Shown: piece after piece, positions 450 to 26,548 of the stretch
Layout of the letters: the number at the start of each line of letters is the position of its first letter
Numbering within the stretch: the first letter of the stretch is position 1
Origin: a virus
IMG/VR virus record: IMGVR_UViG_3300032240_000667
Span: 1-26,548 of that record
Reading direction: 5' to 3' (one strand)
DNA: 26,548 bases
Program-made: the position numbers and the translations under genes
The notes under the pieces: generated by a model
Told to the model about the DNA's origin: nothing
The model's database searches: none
The model's input: only the letters and a program-made list of their open reading frames with translations

Positions 450-1001
450 ATGACAACAGTTTTTAAAAATCAATTACAAAGCAATGTAGGTCCTGTTACA
501 GCAGTAACCGCAGTGGCACCAAGTACACCATCTGTGGGATCAGTTAGATTAACTTTTTCTACACAGACAACAATACCATTTCCGATAGGAAGTTATATTT
601 CAGTACAAGGTGTTAGCGTATCAGGATATAATGGAACGTTCTTAGTTACTGGAGCCACGACTGGAACTGTAACTTATGCAAATGCAACAACAGGTGCCGC
701 AACCGGCGGCACTATAACTACGGTATTGTGGATATCTAATGCATCAGCTAAGACTACTGTTATCGGAATGAGTTTAACAAATACTACACTTAATGTGGTA
801 TTAACATCAGTGCAATTACAAGATACAGTTGCAAATACAACAGCTTATTATGCTAAAGATGTAGTAGTACCTGCAACGCAAAGTTTGCGTTTAGTATCAG
901 CTGGCGAAAAATTGATTCTTGGACCAAGCACAAATTTATTACTATCAAGTAATGTGGCAGCCAGTATAGATGCAATATTAAGTTTTGTTGAAATTAGTTA
1001 A
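450..1001 (+). CDS. Small beta-rich virion protein carrying an inserted E module
   Basis: This 183-residue protein starts 3 bases after the previous stop, with AGGA at 440-443 as ribosome-binding site. The core (about residues 1-16 joined to 90-183) is a compact beta protein with AKTTVIGMSLTNTT, AYYAKDVVVPATQSLRLV and EKLILGP, resembling small structural proteins of T4-like aquatic phages. Residues about 25-88 form a separate module (TQTTIPFPIGSYISVQGV, YNGTFLVTGATTGTVTYA) closely matching one inside the 3558-residue fibre ([36 protein letters not shown]). Removing it rejoins VGPVT to TVLWISNAS. The 110-residue protein at 20373 has the same kind of core without the insert. Virion function is inferred from family resemblance and position. 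Confidence 0.65.
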   Translation: MTTVFKNQLQSNVGPVTAVTAVAPSTPSVGSVRLTFSTQTTIPFPIGSYISVQGVSVSGYNGTFLVTGATTGTVTYANATTGAATGGTITTVLWISNASAKTTVIGMSLTNTTLNVVLTSVQLQDTVANTTAYYAKDVVVPATQSLRLVSAGEKLILGPSTNLLLSSNVAASIDAILSFVEIS

Positions 1002-4400: not shown

Positions 4401-7400
4401 TCTATGACAATGTATGCGGGCGATTGTTTAAAAGATATGTTCCGTATGCGCAATGGTAGCGGATTACGAAATGCTACACTAATAGGATTGCAAGGATCGC
4501 TAGGAGCACCTGATGCAAACTTTATTCAACGTCCGACTGGCGGCTCTTATGCTTGCTTTGATCCAGGCACCGGACCTAATGACACTACTGCTTGGATTTA
4601 TAGAAGAAGTCCTTACGTACAAAACGTTACATCATTTGGTAATGGATGTACAGCATTAAAAATAGATGGAAATTTACACAACGGTGGTGCCAAGACTATA
4701 GTTGCTAATGACTTTACACATATTATCAATGACGGAGTTGGTGTATATTGCACCGGACCGGGTGCGCTTACTGAAGTTATTAGCGTGTTCTCATATTATG
4801 GATACACTGGCTATTTTGCAGAAGACGGCGGCCGTATTCGAGCAGCCAATGGTAATACTTCATATGGTACCTATGGTGTTATCAGCTCAGGTTATGATTT
4901 AACTGAAGCACCAGCTACTGGTATTGTATTCAATCAGTCAAGTCAAGTGCAGGCAACGGTACAAAGTGCGTTTGGAACAACATCTCAACTGTTGAGAATA
5001 AATTATTCAAACGCTGGGTCTAGTTATAGTACTACAACTACGAATATGTTGTACTACACTAATAATTTTATTGGAGCTAACTGGGCTACAGATAGTAATG
5101 TTAGTTTTTCAAAAGTAAATCAAGCACCAACTGGATTAGTTGAAGCATGGACTATGACTGGTACTTCTGGGGTAGCTGGTAATAGTTATGTCTATCAAAA
5201 TATATCAGTACCTCCTCCGGGCGCAACTTATACAAATATTTCAGCAGTTAATGTATCTGGTTCAGGTAGCGCCGCGACTTTTGATATTACTGTTACTAGC
5301 ACAGCCTATGTAGTTGTAGTGAATAATCCAGGAAGCGGATATGCAGTTACTAATCAACTATACATTGCAGGTTCAACATTTGGTGGTGTAAACAACGTTA
5401 ATGATTGTGTTCTTACAATTACAGGACTAGCCGGTAGTACAATTACTGCGGTATCAGTATCTGGAGTTGTTCCAATCAATAGCGCATTAAATTACACATT
5501 CAGTGTGTATGTTAAGCAAGGAACTGCTACTAGTATTGACTTATACGGCATATTCTCAGGCACCTCAACTATGACCAGTGCGATTAGTTATAATTTTGTA
5601 ACTAATACAATAACAGCATCAAGTTCAGGAAGTTATACTATTGGGTCAACTGTGATTAATTCATTTACTCCAATAAACTACGGTGCTATAAATCAACAAT
5701 TATCAACAACTAGTCCAACAGCCGGTTGGTATCGTTTATGGTTTACATTAAATGATAGTTTAGGATTAAACAACAATCTACAATTTAGAATATATCCAAA
5801 AGGATATAGCGGATCGGCTAATGCATACACATTTGTTTACGGCTCGCAAGCTGAATTATCAAAGAGTAATTACGTTCCTAGTTTTTATTTAGAAAATGTA
5901 ACTAACACACGTTATACCGGATACGCTAATTTTAACATTAGTGGCGCTGGTACTGGAGTTGTTACAGTTGCAGATGAAATTAGAACCGGTTCTATATTCC
6001 AGACTCGAGTTATTAACGATTCGTTTGGATTCTCAGGTGGTGCAGGTTACTTAACGTCAAGCAACAACGCTCAATCGGGTGCTGATCAATATATTCAACT
6101 ATCACAATCAGATGCAAATACTAATGCTAACTACACAGGTATGAGATTGTTTATTATTAGTGGCGCCGGCGCAGGACAATACGGCTATATTTCGTACTTT
6201 AATGCAAGCAACAAGTATGCTTATATTCTTAAGGAATCATTTACACCATTAAGTATTGCAAGTACTGATAGTGGCACTAATCAATTTACCCTATCATCCG
6301 GCACAAATACTACGTTATATGTTGGACAACCTGTACAATTTATTCCGACTTATTATACTACATCAATTACTTCGACATCTTTAGCACAAACTACAGTAAC
6401 CGCATCAGTTGGTGGAACAACAAATACACTAACAGTAGCTAGTACTGTTGGACTGGCAGTCAACACTTTAGTAACATTTACTGCTACCGGTGTTGGCCAA
6501 ACGTTGTTTACTTCAGTACAATCAAACTATAATTATTATATCTACGCTATTCTTAACAGTACTACAATACAAATTACAAGTACGATATTTGGTAACGTAT
6601 GGCAGTTAAATAGCGGCACCGGTAGCATGACAATGAACTTTAGTTCTAATACTAGATATTTGCAAGCATCAACAACTAATATGGTAGTTAATTTGCCTAT
6701 GCAATTTACAGGAACTGCGTTAGGTGGTTTAAGTAATGGTGTACAATATTATATTAAAGATATTATTGATTCTAATAATTTTTCAATATCGGGATCATTA
6801 GTTACTATTACAGTAACCGCAACTAATGCTAGTAATGGCCAATTAACCGTTACATCTACGGCGGCGCTAATACCATTGAGTCCTATTATTTTTAGTACCC
6901 CGACTATAGGAACGTTTGTAGACGGAACCAAATACTATATTAGTTCTATTGTTAACAGCACAACGTTCACAGTAGCAAGTACACTATTATCATCGACTGC
7001 GACAGCAACAACCGCAGTAAGTAACTTAGTAACAGTTCCTAGTACAACCGGCTATGTTTCTAATCAACCAATTGTGTTTGTAGGAAATACGTTTGGGGGT
7101 ATCACAGCTGAAACAGTTTATTATATTTTAGCTATTAACAACGCAACAACATTTACAGTTAGTGCAACACCTGGAGGTGCGGCAGTTACCCTATCTACAG
7201 CTTCGGGATTAATGACAGCTAGAACTTGCCCAACATATGTAGTCCCAACTAGTGCTAGCGGTGGAAGTATGATTGGTACTACTACAGGAGCTAAAACAGC
7301 AGTAACATTAAGTATCGGTACAATGACAGGAACCTTCTCAACTAACTTATTTGGTAATGTTGTATTAGGTACAACATACTACATTAATACGATACCTAGT

Positions 7401-9674: not shown

Positions 9675-12600
9675 ATGGCAGAATTTAAACTAGGTAGAAT
9701 TAAGTTTGTTTATCAAGGTAATTGGACTACAGGAAACTCATATGTAGTCGATGACGTTGTTACAGTAGGCGGTAAGACTTATATCTGTGTGATCAGTCAC
9801 ACAGCATCCGCATTATTTTCGACAGACTTAACTGCTAACCCAACTAATTGGAATGTGGTTGCTGACGGGTTAAAATGGACCGGTTCATGGGCAACTGCAA
9901 CTTACTACAATACCGGGGATCAAGCACTATACGGTGGGACTGTTTATATTTGTAAAACAGCTCATACTTCTGCCGCAACTACTGCATTGGGTCTTGAAGC
10001 CGATCAAAGCAAATGGGATGCATTTGCATCAAACTTTAATTGGCTAAATGCATGGGCAATTAATACTCGATATAAAGTTCGTGATTTAGTATACTACGGT
10101 GGTTACACTTATGTTTGTAACACATACCATACATCAGCCGCAACTACTACATTAGGTCTTGAAGCTGACCTAAGCAAATGGGACATATTTAATGCAGGTA
10201 TCGCATATCAGGGTAACTGGAGCGGAAGTAGTGTTCGTTACAGACTCAATGACGTAGTAACTTACGGTCCAGATTTATGGATTTGTACAACTTCTCATAC
10301 TTCGACTGGTACAGATTTAGATCTAACTAAGTTTAGTTTATTAGTTAACGGCTTCCAATTTGAAAACTCTTGGAGCTCTTCAACAGTTTATCAAATTGGT
10401 GATATGGTTACATATGGTGGTTATACTTACACTTGTATCTTAGGCCACTCTAATCAAACACCTAGTACTGCGTTTTCTTACTGGCAACCATTTACTACTG
10501 GTTTCAACTATCGTGCAGACTGGAATAGTTCAAATAATTATAGAACAGGCGATGTAGTAAGACTGGGCGGATATACATATCTTGCAATATTAGATAATGC
10601 CGTACAAAAAGTAGTTGGAATTAGCACCACAGTTTCATCCGACGGCACTCGTCCTAATCAAATTACGCTTGCATCGGCTATCGCTACAACCAGCGCATCT
10701 GCCAGCGGCGGGACTGCTACTATTGGATATGCGACCCAAACAGGTATTCCGTTTGCAGTAGGACAACAAGTTGTTATCGCAGGAGTTACACCAACTGTAT
10801 TCAATGGAACATGGACCGTAACAGCCGCATCGACAACTAGTGTACAATTTGCACTTACTGGAACATACGGTCCACAAACTGTTTCAGGAACTGTTTCAGG
10901 AACAACTGCTACGTTAAACGTTGGTCTACCAATAACATTTGGCACAGCATTAGGCAATTTGCTAACAACTAGTACATATTATGTAAACACTATCAATGAT
11001 AGTACGCATTTTACAGTAACAGCAACACAAGGTAGTGGTACACCATTTGCATTGGTAACAGCAACAGGCTACACAACAGGTACTACAAATCCAACACCAC
11101 CATACACCACTTACTGGAATAGATTAAATTCTGGTATACGTTGGAATGATGCCCAACGAGTTTATAGTGCTGTAAGTGCAACTAATGTGGCTTCTTCTGG
11201 AAGTTCTGCAACATTTAACGTTACCGCTTCAGGTACAACATATTCTGTAACAGTTGCTTCAGGTGGTTCTGGTTATGTTGCCGCTGATACTTTAAAAATT
11301 CTTGGAACAAGTCTTGGCGGACTAAGCCCAGCTAACGATTTATCTATCACAGTTAATACTGTATCAGGCGGAGTAATTCAATCTGCAGGCGTTAGCACAA
11401 GCGGTATTGCAGTAACATGGAACAGTAGTGTAACTTATGTGTTAGGTGATGCCGTGTTCTGGGGCGCCAGCAGTTATATTTGCGTGGCAGCCCACGTTTC
11501 TGCATCAGGTAATAGACCCGACAATGATACAACTGCATTATATTGGAACTTATTAGCAGCCGGTGCTGAACAATCAGTTCTTACTACAACTGGTGACATG
11601 TTCTATTATGGTAATAATGGTCCTACTCGTTTACCAATTGGTAGTAATGGACAAGTTCTACGTGTTAATAGTAGTGCCCCATCGTGGTCATACTACGGTC
11701 AAATCAATAATATTGTATATGTTTCACCATTAGGAACTGATGCACTGACTAACGGTCAAGGGACTACTTTAGATACCCCTTGGAAAACTGTACGATATGC
11801 TTGTAAACAACTTGAAGAAGGATATTTAAACACTAATTCAGGTTTATTATTATCTGTTAACAAACAATTTATGTTAAAAGAAGTTAACAACTATATTACC
11901 TACAAATATTCTGTAACAGTAACTAGTTCAAGCTCATCAGGAAATATACTAGGCACTAGCTCAACAGCCAATTTGTATGTTAATATGCCGATTGTATTTA
12001 CAGGTACAACATTTGGTAATATTGTAGCAGGTACAACATACTATGTGTTAACTATCGTCAACGCAACAACATTTACAGTAACCGCAACATCTGGCGGCTC
12101 TTCATCAGTTACATTAACAACTACTACCGGATCGATGGTTGGTACATACGCATACGACACAACTAAAACCGAAAGAGATGCAGGACTGGTAATCGACGGT
12201 GTAATATTTGACTTAACACATGCCGGAACTTTTAAGACTACAACAAATGCTCAATCATATTTTAATACAGCAGGTACAGGTTTAGCTACCGGTGTTAATG
12301 CTAACGATATAACCCCATTCGTTGATGCACTAACATACCTAAAAGGAACATTGTTTAATTCAGTGTTGGCAAACTCCGCTCCGAGTAGTAATTATCAAGC
12401 ATTAAATGGAATTAGTTCAGGAAATAGAGCGATTCAAAATACAACTAGTGTTGCTACATCAGTAGTTGAAAGTGGTTCATTGACTACCGTACAAGGATTA
12501 ATAACACTAATCACTAATGCACTATCAGTTGGAAATACAACCCAACTACCAGCGGCTATCGTTCCATATAATACTGTTAGTATTAAAACAGGCACTTACA

Positions 12601-15600
12601 ATGAAATTTTACCTATCATTGTTCCTGCGTTTACAGCAGTAGTTGGAGACGAACTACGTTCAACTATCGTGCAACCAGCAACTGCAATATTAAATTTAGT
12701 TAATGATAAACCTAAATCTATAGCATCATTACAACGAATTTCTGCCGTATTACCTAACTTATTAACCAACGCTACAGTAACCGCAACTACAAGTGTAATT
12801 AATCCAAATACACAAACGCAGGTTACTAGTTTACCAACAGGTGATACCGGGTCACAAACCGCAGTTAATACTGTACTAAGTGATATTGCAATTATCGAAG
12901 ATATGATTTATAACGGTGTTCAACAAGCACCTGCAATATCTGTACCATCTGTAACTAACTATAACACAAGCTACCTAGTTGGTTTTGGAGACGGTAAGGC
13001 ACAGATTTTACAAAACTATAACTTTATCAAAGCAGAAGTTGCAAACTTTTTAAATGTTAACTATAACGCAATCTGGACTGGGGCAGCTTTCCAGGCAGGT
13101 ATTAATGCAGAAGTATTGCGTGATGTTGGATTTGTTTTAGATTCATTAATCTATGATATGTCTTATGGTTGTAACAATCAAAGTATTATTCAGGGTAGTT
13201 CTTATTATTCATTAAATATTCTTCAAATTCCGACAGCTTATTTGTCAGCAAGGGTGGCTGCTTTACAAAGAGTATCTGCTATTATTAGTCAGATAGTAAC
13301 AGCTACAACAGTATCTGCAACAGCAAGTACAGCACCATATTCTTCTGCACAAGTAACAACTGGTACAGCAGGTAGTGCGGCAGCCGCGTCATTTGCGGCA
13401 GCTCGTGTTCAAGATGTTATCTATTGGATACAGAATGGCGTTGCTAATACAAGTGCTCCTGTAGTAACTGGATCAATATCAAGTACAACAATGACTGTTA
13501 CCGCGGTAACTAGTGGAACATTAACTCCAGGTATGCTAATTACAGGTACAGGTGTAAGTACACCAACTTACCTAGTAAGTCAAGTAACTGGTACTACAGC
13601 AGTGGCTTCACCTACATATTCAAGTGGTGGCGCAAATGGAACAAATACTTTTGTAGTTAGTTCTGCAACAGGCATTGTTGCTGGACAATTCGTTACAGGA
13701 ACAAACATTCCAGCAGGTAGTTATGTTATTTCAACATATACTTCTGGTACAACCATTACTATAGTTAATGCATTTGGTTATCCAAATAACTTTGGTGCAA
13801 GTGCTCCAACTGGTACTATTAACTTCTATACAGCAGGTGGAACAGGAACTTATACAGTAAACACAACACAAACAGTATCAAGCACAACTCTAACTGGAAA
13901 TTCAACAATCACTCCAATTACCAGCGGTGCATATGCTAACGTAGCAACCGCCGCATTACAAACTGCTTATACAGCGTTGTCTGGCAGAGCTACTGAGATC
14001 GCAAGTGACTCTCAAGCATGGGTTACAAAATACTATCAAGCATATCCAATTAGTACTACACTAACTAACAGAGATGCAGGGTTTATTATTAACGGTATTG
14101 TATGGGATGTATTGTTCAGCAGTAATTTTAATGCTATTGTAATCGGACGATCATTTAATAGATCAAATACAAGTGCTCAAGCATTGTTAGCTAATACTAA
14201 TCAAGAATTAAATGCAACAGTTGGTTCAATTAATCTTATTGGATTTAAAGCAAAAACAATCGCAGCCAGCGGTTCAGTTATTCGTGCTCAAGGTATTATT
14301 AACGATATAGTGCAAACTATAACAGGTCAAGTTACTACAACACTAACAACAGCAACAACTAGCACAAATGTGTTGACTGTAGCTAGTACAGCAACTATGC
14401 AAATTGGAATGCCAATCGCATTTACAGGTCTACCAGCTAATATCACAACAACATCAACAGGAACTACCAGTTCGGGAAATACAATTACATTGGCTGCAAC
14501 TGTGGCTAGTTTGGGAGTTGCTGTAGGACAACAAGTTTACTTTACAGGAACTGTTCCTCCTCCGATAGTCCCCAATCAGATGTATTTTGTACAATCAGCT
14601 TCAGCAAGTGTAATTACGATTTCAAACACATTTGGTGGCGCCGCAATCACATTAATCACTGCAACACCAACAGGTACAATGAATGTAATCTTCAATAATG
14701 CGGGCGGATTATGGAACAATAATATATATTATGTTGCAAGTATTCCAAGCACAACTACATTAACAGTTAGTGCTAGTTTTAACGGATCAGCTTATACTAT
14801 TACAAATACTAAATCAAGTATGACTGCAACTGCGGTTGCTGGTATCAGTAATTCTGTAGGAACAGTTAGCAGTTATCAAACAACTAATGGAACGTTGACT
14901 TACGATAATTCAAGAACAACTATCCAGGGTGTTGAAGTATTACGTGCAAATACAGCATTCCTAGCTAGTGAAGCTAGTGCATATACAGCATCTACATTCT
15001 ACGGAAACTATACAACTGCATCAAATTCAACAACTGCTAGCGGAACTGCAAGTAGCATTACCGGAACAACATTAACAGTCGGTGGCACAGTCACCGGAAC
15101 ATTTGTAGTTGGTATGGTATTAACAGGTACCGGAGTAACTACAGGAACTTATATTACTGCTCTAGGAACAGGAACAGGAGGTGCAGGTAATTATACAGTT
15201 AGTTCAAGCCAGACAGCTTCATCAACTACAATTACTGGCACAAGTAACTTGTTTACAACAGCATCAGCACATAATTTATCAGTAGGCGATCCTGTACAAT
15301 TTACTGCACCTAGTTACAGCACTACAATTACAGGCACAAATACTAACGGTAATATTACTGTTAGAACATCTACAGGTTGGTTAGTAGGTATGCAAGTTAT
15401 AGTTACTGGAACACAGATTAGTACATTGAATGCCGCAACTTATTATGTTAAAACAGTAGTTAATAGCACAACCGTTACTCTAAGTTCAACTTATAACGGT
15501 TCAACATTTACACCCGGTGCAACTGCAACAGGTACAATGGCTGCTACTGCTGGTGGTATTTTTGGCGGACCATCTACAAGCACTACATATTATGTATTGT

Positions 15601-18600
15601 CAACTCCGTCGACTACTAGTGTAATACTAAGTCCAGTTCAAGCAGGACAAGGAATACAAAGTGTTGTTCCAGCAATTACTGCCAACGGAAACGCCTCATT
15701 AAATTATTATTACAATCCTACATCATGTTTAAGAGATACTACTGAATTTGTAAATGCATTGATATACGATATTCAATATCCAGGTAATTACAAATCAATG
15801 CGAGCTACTGAATTGTATCTAAATGCAGTCGGTGGCTCAACTAGCAAAAATATGTACCAGGTTAGAAACGGTACAGGTGTCAGAAATCAAACCCTAACAG
15901 GTATTACAGGGACACTAAGCTCAGCTAATAGCTTTGGCACAAAACGTCCAACAGGCGGTGCGTATGCAAGTTTAGATCCAGGATTTGGACCAAACGATAC
16001 AAACGTATGGATTACAAGTCGTTCATGCTATACCGTAAACTGTACTATGTTTGGTTATGCCGCAGTTGGCGGTAAAGTCGATGGCGCATTACACGCAGGC
16101 GGTAACCGTTCTATGGTTGCTAACGACTATACTACTGTTCTAGGTGACGGTATCGGTTATTGGATTACTGGTTCAAACGCACTTGCTGAATTAGTTTCAG
16201 TGTTTAACTACTATGGATATTCAGGATACTTAGCAGAGCTAGGAGGACGTATTCGTGCTACTAACGGTAATAGTTCATATGGTACATATGGTGTTATTGC
16301 TGAAGGAGTTGACACATTTGAAACACCTATCTATGGTACATTGAACAATCGTTATTTTGGTGCACAGATTACTAACGTCGTGACAGATTTGACCAATCAG
16401 ATATTACGATTTGAATATGCAAATGCTGGTTCAAACTATACTAACTCAGTAGCAACTATTAGTGGTTCAGGTTATAATGCGGCAGCGGCGCATGATGAAT
16501 TCCGCGATGCTTCGATATTTGAAACTCGTTTAGTCGACCTTAATGATACTAAAGGAGTTGGCGGATCAAGTTATGTAACAACATCTAATGCGGCACAGGT
16601 AACTAGTAATAATTATTCATTTACTATCGCAGCCACTGATACAGCATTGACTGATGCATATAACGGTATGCGCCTCCAACTTACTGCTGGTACTGGTGTT
16701 GGACAATACGCAAACATTATCAAATATAATGCTACTAAAGTTGCAAATATTGTTCGTGATACATTTGTTCCATTACAAATTACAGCATGCCAGACTACAA
16801 ATAATCTGTTTACTGTGGCTAGTACTGCAACGATGTATACAGGTATGCCACTTTATGTATACACAGCATTTGGTCCATTAACAACTGGAACAGTTTACTA
16901 TGTAAACAGTGCTAATTTTTCTGCCACACAGTTCCAAGTAAGCACAACATCAGGCGGATCAGGTGTGGCAGTAACAGTAGCTAGCAACATAACAACCGTT
17001 ACTGTTACTGTTACGGCAACAGCGATCACAAACAATTTAATAACAGCAACTAATACATTGTCAGCAGGCCAGGGTATTACATTTAACAGTTCGTTCAATG
17101 GTATTGATTCTGGAACTACATATTATGTGTTAGCGACAAACTTAACAACTAGTTCGTTCGCTGTTGCAGTATCTCCGTTTACAACTACAGCAGTAACTAT
17201 TACTGCTACAGGTTCTGCTAGTTCAACCGGTACTGTTAGTACAGGTTTATTTGCCGCTGGATTTGATCATATCGTTGCAGGAACTCCAATTGCATCTGGC
17301 ACAGATTTAACTACTACTTACATTATTGAACCACGTATTAGCTATTCTGCTCCTGGCTATCTACCAACATCTAGAACACTACCAGGGGCGAGTGCAACTT
17401 GGTCAAGTGTAACATATGGTGCAGGTAATTTTGTTGCAATCGCTAACGGCCCAAGTACACGAACTGCTTATAGTACAGATGGAAAGACCTGGACTTCGGG
17501 TGGCGCGATGCCAAGTAGCCAAGCATGGAAGAGTGTAGTATATGGTGGCGGCCAAGGTGCTAGAGCAACCGCAGTAGTCGGGGGTCTAGGCGGACAGGGT
17601 GCAGTACTACAAGCAGTTATTGGTACTGGATCCAGTGCTACACAGATTGTAAGTATCACAGTAGTTAACGGTGGATATAATTATACAACTGCACCGACTA
17701 TTATAATTACAGGCGGCGGCGGCTCAGGTGCTACAGCATCATGCACTGTTTTAAACGGTGTAATTCAAACGGTTACTATGTCTATCAATGGTAGCGGTTA
17801 TACTAGCACTCCAACTGTTACACCTTCAACAAGTATATTATCTAGTATTACTGTTAATTCATGGGGAAGAGGTTATTATACAACTCCAACGGTTACTATT
17901 GATCAACCAGCTGGACTGAGTCCAACTGCGTTTGCTTTGAATACCGCAGTTAGCTTAAATGCTTATATTCAAACAGCGGCCGGTAGAATCTATCAAGTGA
18001 CTACCGCAGGTACAACTGATCTTTCAATAACACCTAGTTTTGATTATACAAGTTCTAGTCAAAGTCAAACTAACGGTACAGCAGTATTAAAATATATTGC
18101 TACTCAAGCTCAGGTTAACACTACAAGTATTTTACAAAATAGCGGAGTATACCAATTACCACTATCAGTAACAGGTTATGGTTATGCTGGTACACCAGCA
18201 GTTACTATCCTTGATAGTACAGCTAAATTTGTAGCTATATCAAACGGTAGCACAAGTGCCGCATATAGCACAGTAGCTAACTTAGGTAATACATGGACTG
18301 CAAGTAGCGGAGCATTACCTGCCAGCAACTTACAGGCATTGGCATACGGTAACGGAGTTTATGTAGCCGTAGGTGGTGCAAGCGGAACAGCAACATGCGG
18401 ATCAAGTAGCGATGCATTGACTTGGATTTCAAGAAGCATAACAGGGTTAAGTGCAGGTTACTATTCTGCAATTACTTGGGGTGCCGGTGGAAGTGCGAGC
18501 GGTACATTCGTAGCAGTTAACAATGGCGGTATTGTTACAAGTTGGTCAAACAACGGTGTAACATGGACACAAGGCGGAAACTTACCAAGCGGATTTACTA

Positions 18601-20351
18601 GTGCAGTTTCTATTGCATACGGTAATGGACGTTATGTTGTTCTTGGATCTGATGGTAAAGTTGCTTATAGTTATAATAATGCTGGTACTCAATCAGTACA
18701 AGGTTGGTATGCGTCTCCAACATGTTCAGGTACAACTACAAGCATATTAAGTTCTAGTTTAACATGGACTGCACTAACTTATGCACAGGGTGTGTTTATC
18801 GCAATCGCTCAAGGTACAGCAACTGCCGCAACTAGCCCAGACGGTATCAACTGGACAGTAAGAACTTCAGGAATGCCGAGCAGTTCTAATTGGGCTTCTA
18901 TTACTTTTGGAACTGTTTCTAGCACAATATTAGGAAGCCAACCATTGTTTGTAGCTATAAGTGCTACTAGCGGAAGTGTAGCAGCCAGTGTCAGAACAGG
19001 CGCAACTACCAGTGCAAGGATGAAAATTGTTGGCAACGGAACTACTAATGCAGTAAATGAAGTTAGATTAATAGAACCAGGTAGCGGATATCCAAAAGGT
19101 AACGTTACTACAACTACAACTAGCACTATAACCGCAGATGATATTACAAACTTATCAACAAGTATTGCTAATAATCAACCAGTTGAATTTACAAGTTTAG
19201 ATAGTTATGGCCTTGTAACAAATACAACCTATTACATAATCGGTTCTAGTGTTACAACAACCTCAGCACCGGCTGGTACCTTTCAAGTAACAGCGTCAGC
19301 AGGTAGTACTACTGTAGCAACACTAGTAGCAGGTACAAGTTTATCAGGTACATATCGTGCAGGTGCAGTAACAACACAGTTTGATCCAAATCGTGTAAAC
19401 ACAGCGCCATTACGTGTACGTATGGGGGATGGTGCTTTAGGTAACCCTAGCTTCCAGAACAGAGGTAGCAACAACGCTACAGCTACAGCTACAACAGGTG
19501 GCGATGGTTATGCTGATACGTATCAAAATTCAGCATATCTTAATATTTCTGGATTGTTTAGTATTCCTCAAGCAGGCGCTAACGTACAGTTTGCGTCAAT
19601 CACTGGAACTAGCCAATGGTATAAACTAGTTGCTGTTACTAATATTTTAGGTACTGCAGGAAATTATACAGCACAATTCCAAGTTAATCCAGCATTAAGC
19701 ACATTATTAGCACCTGCACATAGCAACTTAGTTACTACACGCTTGAAATATAGCCAGGTACGTTTAACTGGACATGACTTCTTATATATTGGTACTGGTA
19801 ATCAAACACAAACTAACTATCCGTTTGTTAATCCGGCTAATGCTATACAGGCTAATCAAACTTATCCAACAGGTGGCGGCCGAGTGTTCTTTACAAGTAC
19901 TGACCAAGACGGTAACTTTAACGTTGGTAACTTGTTTGGAGTTCAACAGTCAACTGGTACTGCTACCTTAAATGCTAGTGCGTTTAACCTAGCTGGTCTA
20001 CAAAGTTTGACATTGGGCGCGGTAACATTAGGTATTGGATCAGCTACAATTACACAGTTTAGTACAGATCCGTACTTTACAGCTAACAGCGATAACATTT
20101 TACCAACACAGAAAGCTATCAAGAGCTATATTACAGCCCAAATTGGTGGTGGACAAAGTGTTCTTAACGTAAATACGATCACTTCGGGAAGAATTTTCAT
20201 AGGTGGTAATACGATAAGTACTACTGACGGCCTTCAAATGTACGTGGGATCAAAAATGTACTTTGCAGGTGGCGGTGGAGCAGGTATAACACCAGGCGGT
20301 GGCGGCATAGACGGAGCACCAGTAGCCTGGTTCTTCTTCAGTCAAAGATAA
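9675..20351 (+). CDS. Giant modular tail fibre/adhesin, paralog of the upstream gene (3558 residues)
   Basis: AGAGGAA at 9661-9667 sets the start. Domain order follows the upstream gene with more insertions. Residues: carbohydrate-binding-like repeats (1-635), the sixth split by C plus E modules and the seventh by a D module; beta-helix start (678-711; [23 protein letters not shown]); a C module (744-826); RD-type motifs at 834, 1149, 1466 and 2020; [14 protein letters not shown] with GDELRS (973-1000); an A module (1256-1415) containing another insert; nested C modules (1554-1720, 1856-2006) and a further A (1786-1854); conserved beta-helix core (2060-2220; [31 protein letters not shown]); two C modules (2369-2526); an Asp-box propeller (2571-3116) with one blade split by about 220 residues; a C insert (3144-3232); the shared C-terminal block (3358-3480; [16 protein letters not shown]) and a Gly-rich end. 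Host-recognition fibre by inference. Confidence 0.85.
9690..11580 (+). repeat. Seven carbohydrate-binding-like repeats, two interrupted, second giant fibre
   Basis: The same W..s..Y..GD.V.YGGYtY.C..HTS..D..kW pattern occurs as in the upstream gene. Two neighbouring repeats are nearly identical ([19 protein letters not shown] and [19 protein letters not shown], near 9963 and 10129), suggesting recent tandem duplication. Repeat six is opened between YLAILDN and [10 protein letters not shown] by about 170 residues (C plus E modules). Repeat seven is opened between GIRWNDAQ and [16 protein letters not shown] by a D module (about 11165-11415). The upstream paralog has repeat seven uninterrupted. 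Confidence 0.7.
17385..19020 (+). repeat. Asp-box propeller with one blade split by a large insert
   Basis: Seven blades can be counted: [27 protein letters not shown] joined to [77 protein letters not shown] and [16 protein letters not shown]. The second blade is cut after YGGG and resumes at KFVAIS about 220 residues later. The insert contains Gly-rich repeats of the type [17 protein letters not shown] and [14 protein letters not shown]. Catalysis is not suggested by the sequence. Confidence 0.7.
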
Positions 20352-20720: not shown

Positions 20721-21611
20721 ATGGCTCGTTATAATACTTCCGCAATCGCAGCAACGGTTGGTGGTACCACTACAATAACATCACCTGGCGCTGGTTTGTT
20801 TACTGAATTTACAGGAACAGGACCATATACGGTTACAATTCCTGATGCTACACTATACCAAGGTACTACGCAGACATTTTATAATTCAACTAGCAGTGTT
20901 GTTACGTTACAAACACCCCAAGCAGGTCAGTATTTTAAAGGTCCAGGCCAAACGGGTACTAGCAACCAATATGCATTAGCATCACAAGGTACAACAATTT
21001 TAGCATCAGATGGAACATTTTATGCTGTTGTTTTAGGTTCTGGTGGTCCAGTTGCGGCAACTACATTAAGTGCTAGTTCAACTGTCACGCTAAGTCCAAG
21101 CGGTGCAAGCGTTACAATTAGTCCAACTGGCGGGTTGACTGTTGCTCCTACAAGTATTACTGGTACGATTGATAACGTAAACATTGGTGCAACTACTCAA
21201 GGTACTGGTCGTTTTAGTACACTGGTAACAACTAGTGCTACACAAGGTTCTAGCGCAACAAGTGGTCAATCTGTATTGCTTGCAGGCGGTGTTGGTATCG
21301 GCGGCACATTATATACTGTTGGTCTAGTCGAAACATCAAGTATTGTGTTTAAAGAAAATGTACAACCACTAGTTAATCCTTTAGATAAGGTATTAAGTAT
21401 GATGGGCGTTACTTATGATCGTAAAGATGGTCATAGAAAAAACGAAGTTGGTTTAATTGCAGAAGATGTTTATAAAATTGCACCTGAGCTAGTTACACTA
21501 GACGAACATGGTAACCCTTATGGTATTCAATATACTAAAGTTACTGCATTTTTAATTGAAAGTATTAAATCATTAAAAGCTGAACTTGATTCTTTAAAAG
21601 GTAAAAAATAA
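20721..21611 (+). CDS. Tail fibre with C-terminal S74 intramolecular chaperone domain
   Basis: This 296-residue protein has a weak GAGAG ribosome-binding site at 20708-20712. The N-terminal part (1-110) is beta-rich with TVTIPDATLYQGTTQTFYNS, typical of phage fibre shafts. The middle carries GTIDNVNIGATTQGTGRFST and LLAGGVGIGGTLY, linkers widespread in fibres. Residues about 203-296 form a peptidase S74 / endosialidase-type intramolecular chaperone: SSIVFKENVQPL, GLIAEDVYKIAPELV and YGIQYTKVTAFLIESIKSLK. The expected Ser-Lys dyad is present as S206 and K211 with the usual spacing of five. In known members this domain drives trimerisation and then cuts itself off; I infer the same here. Its stop overlaps the next start (TAATG), suggesting coupled translation with the first tip adhesin. 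Confidence 0.85.
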   Translation: MARYNTSAIAATVGGTTTITSPGAGLFTEFTGTGPYTVTIPDATLYQGTTQTFYNSTSSVVTLQTPQAGQYFKGPGQTGTSNQYALASQGTTILASDGTFYAVVLGSGGPVAATTLSASSTVTLSPSGASVTISPTGGLTVAPTSITGTIDNVNIGATTQGTGRFSTLVTTSATQGSSATSGQSVLLAGGVGIGGTLYTVGLVETSSIVFKENVQPLVNPLDKVLSMMGVTYDRKDGHRKNEVGLIAEDVYKIAPELVTLDEHGNPYGIQYTKVTAFLIESIKSLKAELDSLKGKK

Positions 21612-22138
21612 TGGCATCATTACAGTCAGGATCAACAGCTGGCGGTAATCCAATTACAGCTTGGCCTACCGGAACAGCAGTATTGTTTAATCAAACATCG
21701 GCCCCTACCGGTTGGACCAAAATAACTTCATACGGCGATCACGCTTGCCGTGTAGTCGGTGGTACTGTAGGTTCTGGGGGTAGCGTAGCATTTAGTACAG
21801 CATGGACGAATAAAACAGTTAGTGGAACAGTTACTGGTTCAGTACAGAGTACAACTCTATCAACAAGCCAAATACCGAGTCATGTTCACTTTTATTCAGG
21901 CGCACCAACTGATGATAACAACTGGTCGGGAACAGGCGGCAACGGCCAAACATACGGACTAATGTCAGACGCTCCACCATATGTATCAAATGATCCTAAC
22001 TACGGTTATGGTAGATATATGCAGGCTACAGGAAGCGGTTCAGCACACGATCACGGTGCAGTCGGAACATCATTTAACGGTAACGCTTTTAACATTAACG
22101 TAACATATGTTGATGTTATTATCGCAACTAGAAGCTAA
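21611..22138 (+). CDS. Short tip adhesin, copy 1 (paired HxH motifs)
   Basis: This 175-residue protein starts inside the stop of the S74 gene (TAATG). It shares with two later genes a fixed plan: N-terminal strand ending VLFNQTSAPTGWTKITSY, then CRVVGGTVGSGGSVAFS, then IPSHVHFYS, a Gly/Asn/Asp-rich loop (DDNNWSGTGGNGQ, SNDPNYGYGRY), SAHDHG and a final TYVDVIIATRS. Two HxH pairs (H91/H93 and H146/H148) bracket the loop. HxH clusters bind metal in the tips of T4 fibre proteins gp37 and gp12; the same is inferred here from the motif only. Likely a trimeric receptor-binding or tail-collar-like tip. Confidence 0.7.
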   Translation: MASLQSGSTAGGNPITAWPTGTAVLFNQTSAPTGWTKITSYGDHACRVVGGTVGSGGSVAFSTAWTNKTVSGTVTGSVQSTTLSTSQIPSHVHFYSGAPTDDNNWSGTGGNGQTYGLMSDAPPYVSNDPNYGYGRYMQATGSGSAHDHGAVGTSFNGNAFNINVTYVDVIIATRS

Positions 22139-22149
22139 GGAAAAATAAA

Positions 22150-22677
22150 ATGGCAACTCTTGCAACTGGATCAACAATGAACAGCGTGCCTATTTTGGCA
22201 CTTCCATCAGGAACAGTTATGTGTTTCCAACAAACTAGCTCTCCTACAGGGTGGACTAAAATCACCAGCTATAATGATGCACACATTCGTATAGTAAACG
22301 GTAGTGTTAGTACAGGTGGCAGTGTATCATTTAGCTCATGCATGTCATTACAAGCAGTCGGCGGCACAGTAACAGTTACAACAAATGCAATGACCCTATC
22401 AACCGGTCAAATGCCAAGTCATGCACACTGGTGTTCTGCTGCCAACATCGATGACTATAACTTTAGTGGTAGTTCTGGTAACGGACAAAATCATGGATTA
22501 GTAAGTGATGCTGGCGGCTATACATCTAACGATCCAAATTATGGAGCTGGACGATACGGACAAGGATCCGGTGGTGGCTCCTCACATGATCACGGACAGG
22601 TCTCGGCAGGCTTCAGCGGAAATAATATAGATTTAAGGATCAAATACGTAGACTGTATTCTAGCCAGTAAGAGTTAA
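22150..22677 (+). CDS. Short tip adhesin, copy 2 (paired HxH motifs)
   Basis: It has the same length (175 residues) and plan as the gene upstream, with AAGGAA at 22137-22142 overlapping that gene's stop. Shared landmarks are SSPTGWTKITSY, GSVSTGGSVSFSS, MPSHAHW (H91/H93), SHDHG (H146/H148) and a final KYVDCILASKS. The loop between the two HxH pairs keeps DD.N..G...NGQ and SNDPNYGAGRY but differs elsewhere, as expected for a receptor-contact surface. It has extra cysteines (C25, C64, C95, C169) compared with copy 1. It is followed 5 bases later by a small partner gene, a pairing repeated at 22952-23847. Confidence 0.7.
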   Translation: MATLATGSTMNSVPILALPSGTVMCFQQTSSPTGWTKITSYNDAHIRIVNGSVSTGGSVSFSSCMSLQAVGGTVTVTTNAMTLSTGQMPSHAHWCSAANIDDYNFSGSSGNGQNHGLVSDAGGYTSNDPNYGAGRYGQGSGGGSSHDHGQVSAGFSGNNIDLRIKYVDCILASKS

Positions 22678-22682
22678 TTAAT

Positions 22683-22940
22683 ATGAAATTTACAGTTATC
22701 GCCGACGATTGTACAGCATATATTAATACTGTTCCTTTACGTATAGATGTATCTGAGATACCGGATAACGTGCATGCATTACAGTATAATTTAGAAACAA
22801 ATAAAGGAAGAATCGAGTTTAAAATGAATGAAGATGAGATTAGACCTGATAATTTAATAATTGATAATTTGCCCGAATGGGGCAACGAGATACTTAAAAA
22901 GTATCAGTGGGAACAGCTTAAAGGTAGTAAATTTTTTTAG
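22683..22940 (+). CDS. Small VHALQ-motif protein, copy 1; possible fibre-assembly partner
   Basis: This 85-residue protein has TAAGAG (22668-22673) as ribosome-binding site and a paralog at 23566. Shared residues run through the whole length: MKFTVIADD, VHALQYN, TNKGRIEFK and NLPEWGNEILKKY. Proteins with a vhALQ..,.G.IEF..,.LP.W pattern are common beside fibre genes in many phages, usually as hypothetical proteins. Acidic and cytosolic by composition, with no signal peptide. The repeated placement after a tip adhesin suggests a chaperone or assembly partner, but this is inference only. Confidence 0.6.
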   Translation: MKFTVIADDCTAYINTVPLRIDVSEIPDNVHALQYNLETNKGRIEFKMNEDEIRPDNLIIDNLPEWGNEILKKYQWEQLKGSKFF

Positions 22941-22951
22941 GATAAGAAACA

Positions 22952-23482
22952 ATGGCAACATTATTAGCTTCAAACATAGGTGGCGTAGCGATCGATACTT
23001 TTCCAAGTACGACCGCGGTATTATTTCAGCAAACTTCTGCTCCTACCGCTGATTGGACTAAATCAACCACCTATACTGATCACGCATTGCGAGTAGTAAG
23101 TGGTAGTGCAGGCACTGGCGGCAGTGTAAACTATAGCAGTGTCTGGGCTAATCAACAATTTAGTGGTTCAGTTAGTGGTGTGACTAACAATAGTACAACA
23201 TTGTCAACTAATCAAATTCCAAGTCATACACACTGGTGTTCTGCATACCCAGTGGACGATAACAATAGAACTGGAACACAAACTAACGGCCAAACACACG
23301 GTGTAGGTAGTGACGCTGGCGGCTATTCATCTAACGATCCAAACTTTGGTGCGGGTCGAAACATATTAGGGCAGGGTGGTGGCGGCTCACACAACCATAG
23401 TATTTCACTAAGTTTAAGCAGTGGTGGAACGTTTGACCTTAGGGTTAACTATGTCGATACTATCATAGCTACTAGAAATTAA
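22952..23482 (+). CDS. Short tip adhesin, copy 3 (paired HxH motifs)
   Basis: This 176-residue protein has AGGA at 22939-22942 overlapping the preceding stop. It has the same plan as copies 1 and 2: TSAPTADWTKSTTYTDHALR, GSAGTGGSVNYSS, IPSHTHWCS (H92/H94), SHNHS (H147/H149) and a final NYVDTIIATRN. One extra residue lies before the first HxH pair (PTADWTK instead of PTGWTK). The inter-HxH loop keeps SDAGGYSSNDPNFGAGR but varies elsewhere. It is closer to copy 2 than to copy 1 in the WCSA and SDAGGY segments. The second small VHALQ protein follows it. Confidence 0.7.
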   Translation: MATLLASNIGGVAIDTFPSTTAVLFQQTSAPTADWTKSTTYTDHALRVVSGSAGTGGSVNYSSVWANQQFSGSVSGVTNNSTTLSTNQIPSHTHWCSAYPVDDNNRTGTQTNGQTHGVGSDAGGYSSNDPNFGAGRNILGQGGGGSHNHSISLSLSSGGTFDLRVNYVDTIIATRN

Positions 23483-23500
23483 TAAAAGGAAAAACTAAAA

Positions 23501-23508
23501 AATAAATA
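23501..23508 (+). promoter_or_regulatory. Possible T4-type late promoter element
   Basis: AATAAATA is a 7 of 8 match to TATAAATA, in the 83-base gap after the third adhesin. It lies 58 bases ahead of the next start codon. Chance matches are expected in AT-rich DNA, so this is weak. Confidence 0.3.
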
Positions 23509-23512
23509 ATTG

Positions 23513-23540
23513 CAAACAATAGTCCTGGTGATTTTGTTTG
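23513..23540 (+). other. Short inverted repeat in the longest intergenic gap
   Basis: CAAACAA (23513-23519) is followed 14 bases later by its exact reverse complement TTGTTTG (23534-23540). The stem is seven pairs, mostly A-T, and no T-run follows, so it is not a convincing intrinsic terminator. It would lie in the leader of a transcript begun at the nearby promoter-like site. Confidence 0.35.
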
Positions 23541-23565
23541 TAGATATTAAATTTAAGGAATAAAG

Positions 23566-23847
23566 ATGAGATATACTATAATTACAGATGACAAGTTGGC
23601 CTATAAAGATACAACGGCACTCGAAGTTGATGTGTCTGTAGCCCCAGCTGATGTTCATGCATTACAATTTAATTCCAACACAAATAAAGGTTGGATTGAA
23701 TTTAAAACTGACGATTTTGACCATAAAAAACCAAATGAGCCAATTACTGAATTGCCATCGTGGGCTGTGGCCATATTTCACAACTATGATACTGTTGCCT
23801 CGTTAAATACACAGCCTATGACTGGAGACCCAGAAACTGGCCGTTAA
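23566..23847 (+). CDS. Small VHALQ-motif protein, copy 2; possible fibre-assembly partner
   Basis: This 93-residue paralog of the protein at 22683 has AAGGAA (23555-23560) five bases before its start. It matches copy 1 in MRYTIITDD, DVHALQFN, TNKGWIEFK, and ELPSW. It has a longer C-terminal tail (about 17 residues after HNYD) with no recognisable motif. An 83-base gap with a promoter-like site and an inverted repeat precedes it, unlike copy 1, which is tightly linked to its adhesin. A role in fibre assembly is inferred only from its repeated position next to adhesin genes. Confidence 0.6.
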   Translation: MRYTIITDDKLAYKDTTALEVDVSVAPADVHALQFNSNTNKGWIEFKTDDFDHKKPNEPITELPSWAVAIFHNYDTVASLNTQPMTGDPETGR

Positions 23848-23865
23848 TTTATACAGAGGAAGCAA

Positions 23866-24198
23866 ATGGAACTTAAACCCGGAAAATTTTGTCCGTTAAT
23901 AAAAAAAGATTGTGTTGAACTAAAATGTGCTTGGTTTATGCAGGTTAGAGGTAAAAACCCAAATACTGGCAAAGACATTGATGAATGGGGTTGTGCAGTA
24001 GCTTGGATGCCAGTCTTAACTATTGAAAATGCTAATCAACAACGACAAACAGGTGCGGCAGTTGAAAGTTTTAGAAATGAAATGGTTAAAGCTAATAATA
24101 CTAACTTAGAAGTGTTAATGGCAGCGGCCGAAGCGGCACAAAATCCAGCACAAATTACTGCAACAATTCAAGATCCACTTAAAAAATTGCAACGTTAA
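23866..24198 (+). CDS. Conserved four-cysteine phage protein
   Basis: This 110-residue protein has a strong AGAGGAAG site (23855-23862) very close to its start. Four cysteines (C9, C16, C21, C43) are spaced C-x6-C-x4-C-x21-C, within KFCPLIKKDCVELKCAWF and DEWGCAVAWMP. They could bind zinc or an iron-sulphur cluster; this is inferred from spacing alone. The C-terminal half (from about residue 56) looks helical, with RQTGAAVESFRNEMVKANNT and an Ala-rich stretch. I recall similar proteins in aquatic T4-like phages without a known function. Its stop overlaps the stop of the convergent oxygenase gene, leaving no room for a separate terminator. Confidence 0.6.
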   Translation: MELKPGKFCPLIKKDCVELKCAWFMQVRGKNPNTGKDIDEWGCAVAWMPVLTIENANQQRQTGAAVESFRNEMVKANNTNLEVLMAAAEAAQNPAQITATIQDPLKKLQR

Positions 24199-24785
24199 TA
24201 TTCAATCCAGCCGTTTAGCAGATATTTAATACCTGTTAGCGGCGGATTGCCACGATGTGCATGGGTAAAATTGCAAGGATATAATAGTAAGGTTCCACAG
24301 TTAGCTGGAACTCTTTTTTGGCAGTATAAAAATTCAGTTTCTCCGCCCGATTCTACATCATTTAAATATATTTGATAATTTAAAAGTCGATTAGATACAT
24401 GCCTACTACTAGATTCAAAATGCCACTGATGGAATCCTTGACCTGGTAATATTTTTTGTATCTTCATTTGATAAATTGCCTGCTTAGAAGCAGTTTCTAA
24501 TATAGCATATTGATTAACATATGCCGGATAAAATATGTTAGTTATTGCTTCAACAACTTGTTGAGTTATTTTACCGCTATAGCTAATGTCATAGCTAAGG
24601 CTATCACTAAAATACACAGTACTATTATCTCTATCTAGCTTACTAGTGCCATGTTTTTCTTGCTGTCTAGTATAGCCAAATCCTCTAGCATTCTGATGCT
24701 CATAATAATCAATAGCATCTTGACAAAATTCAGGTGTAAATGCTGATGTAAATTCCCCAATAAAATTTTCAAATTTTGTTGTCAT
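24195..24785 (-). CDS. 2-oxoglutarate/Fe(II)-dependent oxygenase, prolyl-4-hydroxylase-like
   Basis: This 196-residue protein has the expected double-stranded beta-helix core in its C-terminal half: PGQGFHQWHFE, then LLNYQIYLNDVESGGETEF, then FTHAHRGNPPLTGIKYLLNG. The likely iron ligands are H122 and E124 (HxE in place of the more usual HxD) and H177. K187, ten residues after H177, fits the residue that binds the 2-oxoglutarate carboxylate. Such enzymes hydroxylate protein or small-molecule substrates, and they are frequent in aquatic T4-like phages with unknown substrates. The start overlaps the Nudix stop (ATGA), so the two are probably co-translated. The weak ribosome-binding site supports coupling. 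Confidence 0.8.
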   Translation of the reverse strand: MTTKFENFIGEFTSAFTPEFCQDAIDYYEHQNARGFGYTRQQEKHGTSKLDRDNSTVYFSDSLSYDISYSGKITQQVVEAITNIFYPAYVNQYAILETASKQAIYQMKIQKILPGQGFHQWHFESSSRHVSNRLLNYQIYLNDVESGGETEFLYCQKRVPANCGTLLLYPCNFTHAHRGNPPLTGIKYLLNGWIEY

Positions 24786-25231
24786 ATCAAATCTACCAAA
24801 TTGAATACTGTTTGAAGCTTAGTACGTATCGTTTTGTTACTAAAACTGTTACGCAAACCTTGATGTAGAGGTTTAGGAGCACGATCAATTATGGCCCACG
24901 CCCATGCACAATGTTCATCACTAAGTGTAGGAACAAATTCGCTTTCAATTACGCACAAGTAAGTGTGGAAATTAAATACAGAATCATTACTTACAAATGT
25001 CTCTATAGGGATAGTTTTTTTAATTTCAGGAAGAAATCCAATTTCTTCAACAATTTCACGCTGTAGACCCTGCCACGGTGTTTCACCTTGTATGGTTGTT
25101 CCGCCAACTAACCCCCAAGTGCCCTCGTGTTTACCGTGAGCTTTTTGTACTAGTAAAAATCGTCGTGTTGATTTAGCGTAGAATAATGCTCCGCTACAAA
25201 CAATGCGTTCTGTTATAGTTCTAGTCTCCAT
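24782..25231 (-). CDS. Nudix hydrolase
   Basis: The protein is 149 residues long. A complete Nudix box G-x5-E-x7-R-E-U-x-E-E-x-G-U is present at residues 44-66 (G44, E50, R58, E59, E62, E63, G65), so metal binding and catalysis are expected. Upstream, FLLVQKAHGKHEGTWGLVGG is the usual strand and loop before the box. The family cleaves nucleoside diphosphates linked to another group; the substrate (mutated nucleotides, NADH, sugar nucleotides or RNA caps) cannot be told from the sequence. The start has AGGA just upstream and overlaps the end of the gp15-like gene by 19 bases; the stop overlaps the oxygenase start by 4. This indicates one transcriptional unit. Confidence 0.9.
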   Translation of the reverse strand: METRTITERIVCSGALFYAKSTRRFLLVQKAHGKHEGTWGLVGGTTIQGETPWQGLQREIVEEIGFLPEIKKTIPIETFVSNDSVFNFHTYLCVIESEFVPTLSDEHCAWAWAIIDRAPKPLHQGLRNSFSNKTIRTKLQTVFNLVDLI

Positions 25232-26548
25232 GATCCTGGCTGATATTCACCTTCAAAACTCTTAACCCATGAAACTCCGTTCCACAAGTATTGTATTCCA
25301 GTGTATATATTCGTTTGCCAGATCATAGTAGTTGAATGTTGAGCGTATGCAAATATTACAACCCATGCACTACCAGTATATTCTATAATATCATTTGCTT
25401 TAGCAACAACATTACCCCATGCAACAGCATAATTAGTAGCAGTAGTACCTGCAGTTCCAGTCCATTGACTATTTTTTGTATTAGCTGTTGATCCTATATC
25501 TTCTATAATTAGATAGCGGGTTCCTGCGGCAACTGTTCCCGGATTAAAAGTCAACGGATTAATTATAGCATCAAACGTACCAGTACTATTAGGTCTATAA
25601 CTAGTAGCGGCATTATATCCTGATTCAAAATCTAAATGTCCTAAACTATCTATGCCGGTATTAGTTACAAGGGTATCAGTATCCCAATTAACTAACATGA
25701 TCACGCTGTCAGTTACATTACCACTAGCATCAACTGGTAGTGCTACAGTACCTACTACTTCAGTTCCATTACTTTGTGTTAAAAATACCCTACTAGATCC
25801 TGCTATAAATTTTCCAGGATACCGATCAAGAACTTCCTGCCAATTAATCGGAGTACCGTTTCTTTGCGGTATACCTAATGTTGGTTCTCTTGGAGTATAT
25901 CCTTCACTAGGTGATAATAATACAGCTTGTCCGATTCCGGATGTATTATTGTATACTTGTAAGACATAATCTGTAATAGTTACAATTTCTCTAGCTAGTA
26001 AATCACCGTAACTAGTAGTACCTGTACCTGCCAGGTCTTCACCTAATCCATCAATATATCCTGTCGGACTAGTTTCAGCAGACCCCCAAAGGCTTGTAAC
26101 AATTTTTGTAATAACACCAAGATGTTTAACTTTAACAGGTGGACTGATCCAGATAGGTGTGTCTAATGTTAGTGTAGCAATATCGATTGGAGTATCATTT
26201 CCTACAGGTACTGTACGACTGCTCCAACCGATATCATTTAAATTTAGGACTGTTAGGCTAGTCCAATCGATATAGTTATCAGTAGTCTGTAATTCTAAAC
26301 TAGGATTAAACAATACTAAGATCTGCTCTAAGATCTGCAACTTTTGATCAGTATTTGCACTCCAGATATCGCATTTCATAGTCAATTTAAAAGGTGTAGG
26401 CATCAAACGTTCAACTGTGTAGTTTCTGCCCTGTGTTTGATTATAAGTTACATGTCCTGTAACAGGATCAACTTGTGTATCGCGTTCACGAAAATGCATT
26501 TTACTAACAAAAGAAGCATCACTAGTTCTATTTCTATCTAATGCAAGA
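25213..26548 (-). CDS. gp15-like tail sheath stabiliser, N-terminus outside window
   Basis: The reading frame stays open past the Met at 26499 to the right edge, adding LALDRNRTSDASFVSK, so the true start lies outside and 444 residues are visible. Segments such as YTVERLMPTPFKLTMKCDIW, TDQKLQILEQILVLFNPSLE, TTDNYIDWTSL and TPIWISPPVKVK match my memory of gp15 (tail completion and sheath stabiliser) in aquatic T4-like phages. T4 gp15 is about 272 residues, so this form is much longer, through a Thr/Asn/Gly-rich C-terminal extension (from about residue 170) ending SFEGEYQPGSWRLEL. It is transcribed opposite to the fibre block. Assignment rests on recalled motifs only. Confidence 0.65.
   Translation of the reverse strand, partial: LALDRNRTSDASFVSKMHFRERDTQVDPVTGHVTYNQTQGRNYTVERLMPTPFKLTMKCDIWSANTDQKLQILEQILVLFNPSLELQTTDNYIDWTSLTVLNLNDIGWSSRTVPVGNDTPIDIATLTLDTPIWISPPVKVKHLGVITKIVTSLWGSAETSPTGYIDGLGEDLAGTGTTSYGDLLAREIVTITDYVLQVYNNTSGIGQAVLLSPSEGYTPREPTLGIPQRNGTPINWQEVLDRYPGKFIAGSSRVFLTQSNGTEVVGTVALPVDASGNVTDSVIMLVNWDTDTLVTNTGIDSLGHLDFESGYNAATSYRPNSTGTFDAIINPLTFNPGTVAAGTRYLIIEDIGSTANTKNSQWTGTAGTTATNYAVAWGNVVAKANDIIEYTGSAWVVIFAYAQHSTTMIWQTNIYTGIQYLWNGVSWVKSFEGEYQPGSWRLEL

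Follow-up and report, generated by a model that had tools for sequence, protein, structure and literature searches.

The stretch of DNA analysed here (the window) is a 26,548-base record of an uncultured phage, and its plus strand carries at 9675-20351 a tail-fibre gene (P0001) for a protein of 3558 amino acids with CBM5/12-type repeats at the N-terminus. In a Pfam scan this protein matches PF02839 (CBM_5_12) with 101.5 bits in seven stretches, the whole-protein cut-off being 26.2 bits, and it matches the profile of the tail fiber family phrog_9851 with 470.3 bits; a megablast of the gene against named phages gave no match. The adjoining ORF (P0002, 1413-9620) encodes a paralogue of 2735 residues, 45% identical across the N-terminal repeats. 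The virus is a T4-related aquatic phage. Its neighbouring genes at 20721-26499 include a Peptidase_S74 chaperone-type ORF (20721-21611), a near-tandem trio of similar ORFs of 175-176 amino acids without a Pfam match (21611-23482), a 2OG-Fe(II) oxygenase (24195-24785), a NUDIX ORF (24782-25231) and a T4-gp15-like tail sheath stabiliser (25213-26499).

The sixth CBM5/12-type repeat of P0001 (10494-11144, plus strand, residues 274-490, as placed by peptides, profile, alignment and the strands of a structure model) is split into two halves. It breaks off after the peptide YLAILDN (10578-10598), where an insert that we call the C module begins (approximately residues 309-470), and is resumed at 11085-11144, as judged by peptide position, the loops of relatives and alignment. 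The intact repeat scores 15.3 bits against CBM_5_12 (model 2-23) and its left piece alone 20.6 bits; with the whole insert deleted, as the sequence-only reading had suggested, the score rises to 24.0 bits (model 2-37), which is still below the cut-off of 26.2, with naturally empty repeats of relatives reaching 24.3 and 28.5 bits. We read it as a CBM5/12-like repeat, putatively of carbohydrate-binding type. In the paralogue P0002, the same loop of the sixth repeat (2352-2534) holds a different module (GTTLKVASTTGIVIGMNIIGVGF...), as it does in the relatives L021 and L022.

The C module (10599-11084, plus strand), which occupies the loop in front of the repeat's last strand, is itself a discontinuous β-barrel, with a left arm at 10599-10679 and a right half at 10902-11084. 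Between its second strand (NQITLAS, 10656-10676) and its third lies the E module, a complete β-barrel of 74 residues (10680-10901, plus strand, residues 336-409), which matches a profile of 73 columns, built from 63 sequences of relatives, over its entire length (78.0 bits, E=6.9e-26, model 1-73 of 73). Relatives are here viral contigs (L-numbered), and P0001, L004, L005, L006 and L007 were excluded from this profile as well as from that of C (90 columns, 255 sequences from relatives). The sequence-only reading had proposed this threefold nesting from the peptides YLAILDN, NQITLAS and TYYVNTI (10974-10994) and from further ones at 10734-10787, 10800-10832, 10914-10958 and 11097-11126, all of which lie where it had put them; its location of E was correct, and the core that it had delimited now extends to the full domain of 74 residues.

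If E interrupts C, its removal should restore a C module. With E in place, the C profile scores 43.0 bits and sees the right side only; after deletion of E in silico, it scores 59.8 bits and covers model positions 9-88, and in a scan of 118 deletions of the same length the score was highest with starts at residues 334-338, i.e. at the E boundary. A C profile unable to bridge the E segment, which according to the sequence-only reading would speak against nesting, was not what we found, though a local HMM alone cannot span a gap of 74 residues. The shortness of C's left arm, only about 27 residues, keeps the gain modest: the right half alone accounts for the bulk of the signal (51.9 bits), while the arm contributes about 8 bits and is weak by itself (5.8 bits). 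Shuffling the left arm 500 times gave a mean of 52.7 bits (sd 1.8) and a maximum of 62.0, compared with the observed 59.8. These controls show that the contribution of the left arm is real but small, and a weak arm together with shuffles reaching 62.0 bits makes the profile test alone a moderately strong one only. Alignment points in the same direction: unguided, MAFFT placed a single gap at E, at the same site, in all 11 unbroken C repeats of relatives, and a 45-row alignment has the gap at E in every E-less row displayed, with the proviso that merging many C and E rows into one alignment misplaces the left arm of C.

An AlphaFold2 model computed from the checked alignment (mean pLDDT 92.3, pTM 0.85) has the same arrangement, although its input alignment itself contained the gap pattern; an input in which plain-C rows were shifted onto E yielded low confidence in the left arm of C. 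In this model, the numbering of which is converted to that of P0001 by adding 271, the CBM repeat contributes strands 7-11, 22-26, 29-33 and 210-212 (P0001 278-282, 293-297, 300-304 and 481-483), C six strands (41-48, 58-61, 148-151, 163-169, 174-178 and 192-200) and E seven strands between 65 and 138. With strands 41-48 and 58-61 sitting on the C side of E, the prediction supports a single barrel formed by the two halves of C, which enclose E as a complete barrel of its own. E superposes on the FCCH domain of UBA6 (Z 10.0, 2.3 Å, 79 residues) and on FCCH-type barrels overall with 2.3-2.5 Å. On the model from the checked alignment the FCCH class aligns in two ways, namely with 60-142, which is E, and with the span 38-203, the latter matching the contiguous FCCH of Uba1 (180-260) with Z 8.0, 1.9-2.0 Å and 77 residues; domain 2 of EF-Tu also aligned, to model positions 38-200. 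By its length and ends, the span 38-203 fits the two halves of C closed round E, and the ranges suggest that the aligned residues exclude E itself. As the same FCCH barrel superposes on the C span and on E, the predicted folds of C and E are shared, and E appears to sit in a barrel of its own fold, which is FCCH- or EF-Tu-domain-2-like. Since Z values of 7-8 can mean merely a common arrangement, this likeness is silent on function.

Relatives provide a natural series of fillings for the same loop, with 52 sixth repeats classified by profile. The loop is empty (13-17 residues) in 23 of them and holds a plain, unbroken C in 11, a count that sets aside L012 (a duplicate of L010), L028 (with a B-like insert by eye) and L062/L063. 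C with E was found in four by profile, with L004 as a fifth read by hand (the carriers being P0001 of the window, L004, L005, L023 and L026), and C with another module, B, in eight; single cases are C with both B and E (L055), B alone, and C inside C in one phage (L062/L063), where the outer C (model 7-42, then 44-88) is split by a full inner one (10-87). The related phages L055 and L054 differ at this point by one clean gap of 73 residues, which is E, present in the former and absent from the latter; on either side of the gap, DNA identity in blocks of 20 columns is mostly 72-83%. This series, i.e. the 23 empty loops, the 11 plain C modules and the L055/L054 pair, is stronger proof of nesting than the deletions scored by profile, and the sixth-repeat loop is a combinatorial hot spot for modules. 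With empty and intermediate stages found in related phages, these fibres appear to grow by modules being slotted into modules.

Taken together, profiles, unforced alignments, the L055/L054 pair and the structure model back the nesting of E in C in a CBM5/12-type repeat of a tail fibre so consistently that we hold it with high confidence. A competing arrangement would be tandem rather than nested, with E and a shortened C side by side in the loop of the repeat and only a linker role for the NQITLAS arm. It could draw on the right half of C carrying most of the profile signal, the arm adding so little, but the tag DGTRPNQI (and its variants) leads straight into the right half of C in six plain C modules and into E and then C in five, L055 and L054 differ at that point by E only, and in the model the two arm strands lie on the C side, with a contiguous FCCH domain covering both halves; a tandem order is therefore very unlikely. 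Even less credence is due to the view that E is a mobile element, for instance a homing insert or a small intein. Its scattered in-frame presence and absence at one site would suit such an element, but 74 residues fall well short of intein size (about 130 or more), the Pfam scan of P0001 returned CBM_5_12 only and no intein or endonuclease family, and E is predicted to be an ordinary barrel. Moreover, a search for insertion-element repeats or a target-site duplication bracketing E found none, and a 12-nucleotide tandem (AACTGTTTCAGG, 10877-10900) falls inside E's own end. That the architecture is a chimera of metagenome assembly, as might be suspected of a fragment of an uncultured virus, we regard as negligibly probable, because the same architecture recurs with diverged sequence in five further contigs (L004, L005, L023, L026 and L055), the frames stay open and omega is low.

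A different matter is whether these modules serve the phage. The nesting could be real and the modules mere passengers, which spread into tolerant loops, fold harmlessly and bring no benefit. E does occur in many host contexts, among them propeller-like regions, the loops of CBM repeats 2 and 3, another repeat 5 loop (L010) and numerous further phage proteins, and 23 relatives do without any insert at the sixth-repeat loop. Against this stand omega values of 0.05-0.19 for E, which indicate strong purifying selection, though the constraint of folding alone could suffice, and the fact that different phages fill the sixth-repeat loop with different modules. We therefore consider passengers a reading of some weight, but rather doubtful. 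By contrast, a function of the nested modules in varying the fibre surface that makes contact with the host is what we regard as probable. An E module is also borne by a separate small ORF of the window (450-1001; residues 23-90, 63.7 bits), and L163, L175 and L182 have similar small ORFs.

E and C have separate histories within one protein. Between L004 and L005, E is 93% identical in amino acids and the right half of C 43%; between P0001 and L004, it is the right half of C that is more alike (80%, with 51% for E), and E and the right half of C differ at informative sites with a Fisher p=4e-14. E thus recombines independently of its host C. The closest counterparts of P0001's E module are not the E modules of its nearest C relatives but those of L026 and, in other host contexts, of L070 and L008. 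On a tree of 70 E modules, the in-C state needs three changes, two of them forced by starred branches, although the AU test (p=0.10) does not reject a single clade, or a single origin, of the in-C copies at repeat 6. Searches of the E and C consensus sequences against named phages gave no match.

Mechanistically, the C module would have entered the repeat at the loop before the last CBM strand, and E would have entered C at the loop between strands 2 and 3. Barrels whose ends lie close together could be placed by in-frame recombination into permissive loops while leaving the host fold intact, and every inserted barrel would supply loops for the next insertion. The separate swapping of C and E would then have followed. 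Stacked in this manner, the barrels might jut sideways from the fibre and thereby vary its surface, either for binding or for spacing.

Further along P0001, at 14316-14834 (residues 1548-1720), a complete second C (1590-1670) breaks up an outer C module (model 5-50, then 35-89), and at 15192-15551 (1840-1959) the start of a C (model 4-43) is followed by a complete one, possibly C in C; in P0002, successive partial and complete C matches at 6225-6998 (1605-1862) suggest more nested or tandem C modules. At the level of profiles, E and C align in register in hhalign but formally weakly (probability 6%). The scores of E with C and of C with B exceed those of block-shuffled controls (0 of 150 each), the Thr-rich sequence calling for caution in the E-C comparison, whereas the score of E with B does not rise above 150 such controls; a common barrel family is therefore plausible. 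Because C and E share a fold, because of the E-C and C-B scores and because of the C-in-C cases in the window and in L062, there is a hint that B, C and E have diverged from one another within a single family of self-inserting barrels, in which each copy is both an insert and a landing site, so that fibres grow recursively. We give this idea nearly, but not quite, even standing.

Exchange of domains between phages is a recent and ongoing process in the tail fibres that serve as receptor-binding proteins (Smug et al. 2023, PMC10684548), and P0001 resembles the mosaicism described there in that tail-fibre domains are exchanged; the main text of that study uses neither 'nested' nor 'inserted', whereas P0001 has modules within modules, up to three levels deep and with one loop being reused. 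Structurally, E resembles the barrels of the endosialidases of phi92 (4hiz; Z 9.1, 2.1 Å, 77 residues) and endoNF (3gvj; Z 8.1, 2.3 Å, 74 residues). In endoNF the barrel is inserted in a propeller. These enzymes have a single insertion, however, with no barrel in a barrel, and are merely 13-20% identical to E. The FCCH domain of the ubiquitin E1 enzymes (UBA6, UBA1; PF16190), likewise inserted into its host protein, shares its fold with E and C but has an unrelated function and no nesting in its own fold; the E1_FCCH profile matched neither E nor C modules at E-values up to 10, a search in which HMMER filters can drop weak matches. Among closer relatives, the phrog_9851 tail fibres of cyanophages and pelagiphages (P-SSM2, Mosig EXVC030M) have the N-terminus of CBM repeats and the family in common with P0001. 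The homologue of Pelagibacter phage Mosig has approximately 1245 residues compared with 3558 in P0001, and B, C and E modules found no match within 1146 amino acids of it. Ig-like and BACON decorations of virion proteins are, like E and C, small and promiscuous β domains, but to our knowledge they are mostly added in tandem or at termini rather than by recursive insertion into loops. In the open-access literature we found no description of a nested insertion, or of a recursive same-fold barrel insertion, in a tail fibre. Thus, domain mosaicism in tail fibres is known; what is unusual is that insertion proceeds recursively into a like fold, at a site used repeatedly, and that intermediates are present.

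As a rule, nested domain insertions are visible solely as old and finished products. Here, one loop is found empty and singly, doubly or multiply filled, and the related phages L055 and L054 differ by the innermost module, so that the sequence of events, as well as which loops and which modules take part, can be studied directly. If B, C and E were indeed one self-inserting family, fibres would have grown by insertion of like into like from about 1245 residues, as in the bare relative, to the 3558 of P0001. Furthermore, the nesting of modules helps to explain fibre genes of 8-11 kb as well as why profile searches catch only fragments of fibre domains.
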